Positions 2,247 through 4,670 of a stretch of 44,959 bases of DNA are shown in pieces; the first letter of the stretch is position 1; the number at the start of each line of letters is the position of its first letter. The DNA comes from Spirochaetales bacterium (GTDB lineage Bacteria > Spirochaetota > Spirochaetia > Treponematales > Treponemataceae). The notes below the pieces were generated by a model. The model worked only from the letters and a program-made list of their open reading frames with translations, was not told the origin of the DNA and ran no database searches. The translations under genes were made by a program, and so were the position numbers. Location: the NCBI GenBank assembly GCA_016929605.1, contig JAFGIM010000151.1:1-44959 (forward strand), written 5' to 3'.

Positions 2247-3113
2247 TTAGGGCATTACCTTTCGCAATTCATATTCCAAAATATCAGTAGCCCCCAAGGC
2301 CTTAAGCTTGGGCATCAACAGGGGCACTTCGCTTTTCTTGACAACAATCTTAATAGCATATCCATCATCCCCATAGAGGGGGGCCACCGTCGGACTCTTC
2401 ATGGCAGGAATACCACTGACTAAATCAGAGAACCGGGCCTTGGAAACATTCATCTCGAGCATCACCCGATTACGCGCTGCAAGGGCTGCTTCAAAAAGCA
2501 TCTTGAGCTCCTGAATCTTCTTGCTCTTCTGGGGATTCGCCATAGCCTCTTTAGAGGCAAACATCCTGGTGGAGCTTTCCATGATAGTGTCGATAATTCG
2601 TAAACCATTTTCCTGAAGAGTTCTGCCAGTTGCGGTGTTGTCGATAATCATGTCCGCATCGTCCGGAGGAAACACCTCGGTGGCGCCATAGGTACGGACG
2701 ATAAGATAATTCAGTTTTTCTTTTTTAAGCCATACCTCGGCGTTATTCACATACTCGGTAGCAACAATCATTCGCTTGGATCTAAGGGTCGCGTCATCAA
2801 TTTCGGAAGGAACTGCAGCAACGATGCGGACCTTGTCAAAACCCAGATCCATCACCTCAACCACATCTGCCCCTGTTTCTCGAATCCAGTCAATTCCCGT
2901 AAATCCAATATCATGTGCCCCCAGTTCCAGGAGCTTGCCGATATTCTGAGGCTTCATTACCTTTGCCTCAAGATCATCCTGATTAACTATGGGGCGATAG
3001 GTGCGGTCCGGCAAATAAATAGAAATCCCCGCCTCGGCAAACATAGCCGCGACGTTTTCATAAATACGTCCCTTCGGCAGCAAAATCTTGAGCTTGTCCA
3101 TACAATCCTCCAC
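2247..3113 (-). CDS. hisG: ATP phosphoribosyltransferase, long form with C-terminal regulatory domain (likely start ATG at 3101)
   Basis: KILLPKGRIYENVAAMFAEAGI, IGFTGIDWIRETGADVVEVMDLGFDKVRIVAAVP; C-terminal PTVAPLYGDDGYAIKIVVKKSEVPLLMPKLKALGATDILEYELRKVMP. Confidence 0.93.
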   Translation of the reverse strand: MEDCMDKLKILLPKGRIYENVAAMFAEAGISIYLPDRTYRPIVNQDDLEAKVMKPQNIGKLLELGAHDIGFTGIDWIRETGADVVEVMDLGFDKVRIVAAVPSEIDDATLRSKRMIVATEYVNNAEVWLKKEKLNYLIVRTYGATEVFPPDDADMIIDNTATGRTLQENGLRIIDTIMESSTRMFASKEAMANPQKSKKIQELKMLFEAALAARNRVMLEMNVSKARFSDLVSGIPAMKSPTVAPLYGDDGYAIKIVVKKSEVPLLMPKLKALGATDILEYELRKVMP

Positions 3114-3131: not shown

Positions 3132-3170
3132 GAAAAAAAAAGCCGCTGTTCCCTGGCGGGCACAGCGGCT
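3132..3170 (-). terminator. his attenuator: intrinsic terminator upstream of hisG
   Basis: Minus strand AGCCGCTGT-GCCCGCCAGGGA-ACAGCGGCT followed by TTTTTTTTT: perfect 9-bp stem plus T-tract, between the leader peptide and hisG. Confidence 0.92.
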
Positions 3171-3196
3171 GCTGTTATATGCTTACAGCGTCACCG
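3166..3196 (-). promoter_or_regulatory. Predicted his antiterminator hairpin (2:3)
   Basis: Minus strand CGGTGACGCTGTAAGCATATAACAGCAGCCG: CGGU/GCCG plus GCUGU/ACAGC pairs; captures the AGCCG needed for the terminator 5' arm. Confidence 0.7.
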
Positions 3197-3202
3197 ATTA
3201 CC

Positions 3203-3262
3203 TCAGCCCGGAATGGCACAGGAGGAAACATGATGATGGTGAAACGCCTTGAAAATATTCAC
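3203..3262 (-). CDS. hisL: his leader peptide, (fM)NIFKAFHHHHVSSCAIPG, with four consecutive His codons
   Basis: GTG AAT ATT TTC AAG GCG TTT CAC CAT CAT CAT GTT TCC TCC TGT GCC ATT CCG GGC TGA on the minus strand, followed by pairing segments and terminator before hisG. Too short for the ORF track. Confidence 0.85.
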   Translation of the reverse strand: MNIFKAFHHHHVSSCAIPG

Positions 3263-3298
3263 GGGAATAGTAAAACATGAATGGCTAAATGGTGTCAA
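3263..3298 (-). promoter_or_regulatory. Putative his operon promoter
   Basis: Minus strand TTGACA - 18 nt - TTTACT (17 nt to TTTTAC), 6 nt before the leader GTG. Confidence 0.6.
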
Positions 3299-3313: not shown

Positions 3314-3347
3314 TTGACAGACAGGACGGACTGCCGTACGATAAGCC
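3314..3347 (+). promoter_or_regulatory. Putative argA promoter
   Basis: TTGACA (3314-3319), 17 nt spacer, TACGAT (3337-3342), then 5 nt to ATG at 3348. Confidence 0.6.
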
Positions 3348-4670
3348 ATGATGCATACAGAACGGATTCGCGATGTAATCCGCTACATACGAAAATTCAA
3401 GGGTTCTACCATTGTTATTCAAATTGACGATTGTCTGGTAGATGCCTCTCTTTTCTCAGGACATATTCACGATCTGGCACTCCTGTATGAAACTGGAATT
3501 CGCATTATCCTGGTTCCCGGCGCTAAAAATCACATCTCGCAGGTCCTCGATTCCTACGGAGTACAATGGACAATGCACGACGGTGTTCGAGTAACAAGCG
3601 ACGAAGGAATGAACTTTATCAAAATGGCGGCCTTTGATATCTCTAACCGTATCATGACACGGCTATCAGGCGAAAAACTCACCGCTGTCATTGGCAACTG
3701 GGTTCGTGCGCGTGGCCGGGGCGTTATAGACGGTCTTGATTACGGAAGCGCTGGCCTGGTCGAGAAAATTCAAATCGAGTCCCTTAACCGTGCCCTGGAC
3801 GACGGCTTTATTCCCATTATCCCCTGTATCGGTTGGACTTCCACCGGTAAACCCTACAATATCTCCTCTACAGAGCTTGCCGTCGCCACCGCAATAGCGG
3901 TAAAGGCAGAGAAACTGTTCTTTGTCGCCAAGGGAGCGACTATCTCGATTAACGATTACGATCTCCTTCCCACCACAGCCGCATCTCCGGAAGGCCGACT
4001 TGCCGCTATCTCGGTAGACGATATTCCTGCCTTTATTACGGCAAATAAAGATGTGGTAAATCCGGCCTTTCCCACCGAGACGCTTATTGAGCTTTTGGAA
4101 CAGGGTCGCGACGCCTGCCTTGGAGGGGTAACCCGCTCGCACATCCTGGATGGAAACATCGATGGGGTCTTACCCGCGGAGGTTTTTTCCGATCTGGGAT
4201 CGGGAACCATGATATTCAAAAACAATTATGGTACCTTCCGACCCATGACCAGGGACGACATCCCTGCGGTCCTATCCCTTATGAATCCCTTTGTAGAGAA
4301 AAAGATCCTTTTACCCCGTTCCTCCGAGGAGCTTGAGCAAAAAGCCCAAGATTTTATGGTATACGAGATTGATGGCGGAATCCGTGCCTGCGCAGCCCTC
4401 CATGTATATCACGGCAATACCGGAGAAATAGCCGCCCTGGCGGTGGACGAAGCCTATGCCCACATGGGAATTGGCCCGCGTCTCATGAACCTACTCATTG
4501 AACGGGGTAAAAATGCAGGATTCAAGGCAATTTTTGTGTTAACTACACAAACAGCAGACTGGTTTGAGCGTTTTGGATTCAAATCAGCCGAAATCGCTCG
4601 TCTTCCAGCTGAACGCAAGGAAAAATGGAGGGCAGATCGAGGATCCAAGGTTCTTTTTTTAGATTTCTAA
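3348..4670 (+). CDS. argA: Amino-acid N-acetyltransferase (N-acetylglutamate synthase), kinase-like + GNAT domains
   Basis: 440 aa; AAK domain (LVPGAKNHISQVLDSYGV, IPIIPCIGWTSTGKPYNISSTELAVATAIAVKAEKLFFV) plus C-terminal GNAT (GEIAALAVDEAYAHMGIGPRLMNLLIERGKNAGFKAIFVLTTQTADWFERFGF). Confidence 0.9.
   Translation: MMHTERIRDVIRYIRKFKGSTIVIQIDDCLVDASLFSGHIHDLALLYETGIRIILVPGAKNHISQVLDSYGVQWTMHDGVRVTSDEGMNFIKMAAFDISNRIMTRLSGEKLTAVIGNWVRARGRGVIDGLDYGSAGLVEKIQIESLNRALDDGFIPIIPCIGWTSTGKPYNISSTELAVATAIAVKAEKLFFVAKGATISINDYDLLPTTAASPEGRLAAISVDDIPAFITANKDVVNPAFPTETLIELLEQGRDACLGGVTRSHILDGNIDGVLPAEVFSDLGSGTMIFKNNYGTFRPMTRDDIPAVLSLMNPFVEKKILLPRSSEELEQKAQDFMVYEIDGGIRACAALHVYHGNTGEIAALAVDEAYAHMGIGPRLMNLLIERGKNAGFKAIFVLTTQTADWFERFGFKSAEIARLPAERKEKWRADRGSKVLFLDF

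Follow-up and report, generated by a model that had tools for sequence, protein, structure and literature searches.

The DNA upstream of hisG in a Spirochaetales bacterium raises the question of whether a spirochaete controls its histidine genes by ribosome-mediated attenuation, and of how the leader peptide would be translated when its start codon follows the promoter almost immediately. The analyzed stretch, called the window here, comprises positions 1–44,959 (44,959 nt) of contig JAFGIM010000151.1 of assembly GCA_016929605.1. Its host belongs to the Treponema group, and thus is a spirochaete, the case for which the initial annotation had called the occurrence notable. On the minus strand, to which all window coordinates refer unless stated otherwise, a promoter, a 19-codon open reading frame (ORF), and an intrinsic terminator follow one another between 3298 and 3132, and the hisG start codon is located 31 bases downstream. 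The sigma-70-type promoter (3269–3298) consists of TTGACA (3298–3293), an 18-bp spacer, and TTTACT (3274–3269). Six nucleotides, ATTCCC (3263–3268), separate the −10 box from the start codon, so that the predicted 5′-UTR has a length of about 0 nt. The hisL-like leader ORF (3203–3262; MNIFKAFHHHHVSSCAIPG) starts with GTG at 3262 and ends with a TGA stop codon at 3203. Its four regulatory codons, CAC CAT CAT CAT (3230–3241), lie within segment 1 of the leader RNA. The terminator, formed by segments 3 and 4 (3132–3170), was predicted by folding as a hairpin, AGCCGCTGTGCCCGCCAGGGAACAGCGGCT (3170–3141), with −22.6 kcal/mol and a subsequent U-tract, and the T-run after the hairpin extends to 3133. 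The initial annotation had placed the promoter, the leader ORF, the His codons, and the terminator correctly to the base.

The predicted first regulated gene is hisG, encoding ATP phosphoribosyltransferase (2247–3101; TIGR00070, TIGR03455), with an ATG at 3101 and a Shine-Dalgarno (SD) motif, GGAGG, at 3107–3111. It is followed by hisB (1612–2229) and a hisA-hisIE fusion gene (308–1594), both identified by NCBIfam models. The fusion ORF has 428 amino acids, matched by HisA over 2–235 and by HisIE over 239–427. The last ORF (2–292), which runs off the window, we take to be the start of a hisD-like gene. On the plus strand, a divergent argA-like gene has a promoter of its own (3314–3350; TTGACA, 17 bp, TACGAT, and 5 nt to the ATG at 3348) and also looks leaderless. 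The two promoters stand back to back, with 15 bases between their −35 boxes.

The distribution of the element was analyzed by sampling hisG-upstream DNA from 60 related genomes, from 80 named GTDB loci, and from about 70 further loci in a survey of the phylum. In 73 hisG-upstream loci, an ORF with a His run precedes an intrinsic terminator; these loci were reduced to 57 distinct leaders after duplicates and one doubtful match had been dropped. About 56 distinct relatives carry leader and terminator ahead of hisG. Both elements are present in all 12 sampled genomes of the window's genus and in four families of the order (f1, f3, f4, and f5). The leader peptides vary outside of the His run, which is retained in all relatives with a leader, and thus the His run itself is the part that is conserved. 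It is this conservation, and not the single window sequence, that lifts the element beyond chance. The initial annotation had made its reading depend on the conservation of the His run and the stems in close relatives; both are conserved, and the reading was not refuted. About 12 relatives of the same order have no leader in the sampled hisG-upstream loci, showing that it is not essential. One locus (L016, genome G021) appears to carry a decaying leader, MNIQLLYEYHHCAVSVSENDR, with just two adjacent His codons, while promoter and terminator are still there. In the hisG-upstream DNA sampled from other spirochaete orders and classes, no convincing leader was found; a leader ahead of another first gene would escape this sampling, which covered hisG-upstream DNA alone. 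One weak His-rich match outside of the order (L162) was judged to be due to chance, having a weak terminator (−10.2) and a poor promoter.

The alternative RNA structures proposed in the initial annotation were not supported to a uniform degree. As a whole, the window leader has a more stable fold than its dinucleotide shuffles (z = −2.4). The terminator showed clear covariation: in 13 close relatives, 11 consensus pairs were found, 5 of which were changed on both sides, and a set of 35 sequences contained more pair types. Pairing analysis identified segment 2 (CGGUGACGCUGU, 3185–3196) as a partner of either the His codons in segment 1 (1:2) or of segment 3 (2:3). Segment 3 (ACAGCAGCCGCUGUGCCC, 3158–3175) is, according to the folding, common to antiterminator and terminator. 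The 1:2 stem joins the His codons to a stretch downstream of the stop codon that contains GGYG (GGUG in the window). In the window, GGUGA can pair in two nearly equal registers, with GCG..UCACC or with UCAUC from the later His codons, and the second of these has been added to the original proposal. Compared with dinucleotide shuffles of the post-stop stretch, the 1:2 pairing was not significant for the window sequence alone, but highly significant for 34 sequences combined (Fisher p ~1.6e-11). The own partner was, on average, stronger than foreign partners (−17.5 versus −15.1 kcal/mol). Therefore, the overlap of this stem with the His codons is supported collectively. Segment 2 begins 6 nt past the leader stop codon in the window, and the GGYG element lies 4–7 nt past it in 12 of the 13 close relatives. 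Given the size of the ribosome footprint, segment 2 would thus be covered once the ribosome has reached the stop codon, as the mechanism requires. In L040–L050 (families f3 and f4), a complementary stretch follows the His run in the same ORF, for example CATCATCACGGC ... GCCGTGATG. In these loci, the leader ORF thus seems to include segment 2, a topology unlike that of the window's genus.

The 2:3 antiterminator was the least supported of these structures. The window has only a weak 2:3 stem of −9 to −10 kcal/mol, which on its own does not exceed shuffles. When the RNA expected to be exposed by ribosome stalling at the His run was folded, bases of the terminator arm were paired in 34 of 34 sequences. 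On average, the exposed stretch formed 8.4 pairs with the arm, compared with 6.7 in shuffles (Wilcoxon p 1.6e-4), but the combined single-sequence tests reached only marginal values, with p 0.034 for the number of pairs and 0.006 for the energy. Own 2:3 duplexes were no better than foreign duplexes across species, no species-specific covariation was found, and RNAalifold returned a consensus of only 4 bp (−0.97 kcal/mol) for the sequence that extends to the terminator arm. An antiterminator excluding the terminator was thus present in all predicted folds and modestly above shuffles. By eye, the stop region of the leader might also pair with the loop of the terminator.

These data also fit an explanation in which translation matters but no specific 2:3 pairing exists, the stalled ribosome simply leaving unpaired or loosely paired RNA that interferes with segment 3. 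The modest excess over shuffles and the lack of species-specific covariation would be expected in this case. However, the distance of GGYG from the stop codon is kept in the close relatives, the base of the terminator offers a conserved CCG as a pairing partner for GGYG, and the pairing with the terminator arm exceeds that of shuffles over the whole set. We therefore regard this explanation as unlikely, and a 2:3 antiterminator as plausible, with only modest computational support.

Next, the start of the leader ORF is considered. The promoter was viewable in 56 of the 57 distinct leaders, as L118 had no remaining upstream sequence, and nearly all relatives have a counterpart of the form TTGACA-17/18-TNNNNT. 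The best consensus promoter was searched for up to 40 nt upstream of the leader start, with no other spacing imposed. In 48 of 57 distinct leaders, the script found it 5–10 nt from the leader start. Seven further leaders (L003, L041, L042, L043, L086, L087, and L090) were read by eye and have a −35 box and a −10-like hexamer (TTAACT or TTCTAT) 7–10 nt from the start. In total, the gap between −10 box and leader start is 5–10 nt in 55 of 56 distinct leaders; in L120, also read by eye, it is 14 nt. A strong promoter at 5–10 nt was present in 61 of 71 real loci, compared with 8 of 1420 shuffled upstream sequences. SD-like 4-mers preceded only 1 of 57 leader starts versus 28 of 34 hisG starts. Transcription usually starts about 7 nt past the −10 hexamer, and with the observed spacing, a 5′-UTR of about 0–3 nt is predicted for the leader. 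Because of the narrow gap and the near absence of SD-like 4-mers, the leader peptide is probably translated from leaderless RNAs throughout the order, a possibility that the initial annotation had raised for the window. As a point against this, the window leader starts with GTG, while most relatives have ATG, and ATG is usually better than GTG for leaderless initiation.

It could be argued that attenuation operates as described, but that another promoter provides the leader ORF with a conventional, short 5′-UTR. Promoters were scored only if they matched the consensus and lay no more than 40 nt upstream, and the transcription starts are predictions from the sequence, which leaves some room for this explanation. 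Nevertheless, almost all relatives have a near-consensus promoter within the same narrow range of spacing, and 56 of 57 leader starts have no SD-like element, which makes this explanation quite improbable.

The genomic background is consistent with the leaderless reading. A leaderless promoter pattern had 44 matches in the host genome versus 18 in reversed controls, and a tighter pattern had 31 and 39 matches in two relatives versus 1 and 2 in the reversed controls. To judge from these patterns, the lineage seems to be used to leaderless mRNAs. In another spirochaete, Leptospira interrogans, about 440 mRNAs with UTRs of less than 10 nt have been reported (PMC5243855). Relatives that lack the leader often show a leaderless hisG. 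In six loci without the attenuator (L013, L014, L026, L031, L032, and L037), the −10 box of hisG is located 6–9 nt from the start codon and there is no SD motif, as if the loss of the leader had made hisG itself leaderless.

The third explanation, in which an ORF only incidentally rich in His codons precedes a constitutive terminator, or a T-box or riboswitch senses the tRNA, without any sensing by the ribosome, is very improbable, since the His runs are kept although the rest of the peptide changes, and no Rfam family, T-box included, reached its gathering score in the window or in 20 relatives.

Taken together, it is highly probable that the element, leaderless start included, controls the his genes by ribosome-mediated transcription attenuation. 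The best explanation of the sequence data is that the run hisG-hisB-hisAIE-hisD is regulated and that charged tRNA-His is the signal. RNA polymerase would start at the leader start codon or a few bases from it, and a ribosome would load directly onto the 5′-terminal start codon by leaderless initiation. When charged tRNA-His is scarce, the ribosome would stall on the His codons and cover segment 1, and the 2:3 pairing would then hold back the 5′ arm of the terminator and allow read-through into hisG. When tRNA-His is charged, the ribosome would reach the stop codon and cover segment 2, the 3:4 terminator would form, and transcription would stop. Without translation, 1:2 and 3:4 would form, and transcription would likewise stop.

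The initial annotation had called the element a classical His attenuator. This holds for the leader peptide, the terminator, and the 1:2 pairing, all conserved in the order, but not for the match to the known family and not for the leader, which is apparently leaderless. The Rfam His_leader model (RF00514) did not reach its gathering score in the window or in the 20 relatives and was not among the Rfam matches even at E values of up to 10, and the weak matches at E up to 10 (ylbH, mir-24, and others) were dismissed because they were far below the gathering scores. The enterobacterial his leader (hisL; RF00514), the design of which is described in PMC3896937 and PMC9413887, shares the run of His codons in a short ORF, the alternative stems overlapping this run, and the intrinsic terminator before the first his gene. 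In contrast, the window has four consecutive His codons versus seven in E. coli (PMC3896937), and the stem sequences differ. According to PMC9413887, a study from 2022, his RNA attenuators occur in Proteobacteria, and candidates were added in Firmicutes, namely in the Bacillus cereus group, Peptostreptococcaceae, and Erysipelotrichales. These candidates resemble the spirochaete element in having three to five His codons, a terminator and an antiterminator, and no RF00514 match. They belong to a different phylum, and the passages on them describe no leaderless leaders.

Leaderless leader peptides have been reported in Actinobacteria for leuL, trpL1, and ilvL of Streptomyces lividans (PMC8079986) and for ilvBNC of Corynebacterium glutamicum (PMC11857589), and mycobacterial polycysteine leaderless ORFs appear in a title cited in PMC13236596. 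In these systems, too, the RNA begins at or near the start codon of the leader peptide, but they respond to other amino acids in another phylum, and no his example was found among them. Similarly, the leader ATG forms the 5′ end of the RNA in the Trp-codon attenuator trpL (rnTrpL) of Sinorhizobium meliloti (PMC7298713), but the amino acid is tryptophan and the organism is an alphaproteobacterium. Until a survey from 2010 added a system in bacilli, leader-peptide systems had, according to that survey, been recognized in Proteobacteria and Actinobacteria alone (PMC2965389). A search of the open-access literature retrieved nothing that joins spirochaetes and leader-peptide attenuation, and within the same scope no leaderless leader peptide reported for spirochaetes or for his.

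A second leader peptide that looks leaderless was observed in the host genome and is conserved in the genus. A Leu/Val-rich leader, MNTVIGLVVVLLLVVVLVVVPTWGESLSRA, precedes an ilvB-like acetolactate synthase gene (G000:C6:3173-3210; L316, from 509, plus strand). Its promoter is TTGACA-17-TAATAT with six bases to the ATG, and its terminator (−22.7 kcal/mol) lies 18 nt past the stop codon. Such a leader is present in a total of eleven genomes of the genus and in one genome of another genus (G014). In the equivalents (L270, L272, and L304–L312), the six-base gap leads to the first-listed ATG, and in L309 and L312 to the second ATG. The sampled upstream loci of trpE and leuA contained no Trp- or Leu-type leaders of such a layout. 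We lean towards the view that leader-peptide attenuation in this order operates, as a rule, on leaderless RNAs and serves at least two pathways, his and, via the ilvB leader, branched-chain amino acids. If this is true, the ribosome must load on the 5′-terminal start codon once that codon leaves the polymerase.

The spirochaete element is set apart from the classical his attenuator by its lineage and its conserved leaderless start, and the leaderless leader is a more notable part of the observation than the attenuator itself. The conserved spirochaete set represents an independent case of his attenuation that is absent from Rfam. The leaderless start over four families lets one ask whether ribosomes initiate on leaderless RNAs rapidly and regularly enough to be coupled to the polymerase for attenuation, and the about 56 natural leader variants may be used for this question.
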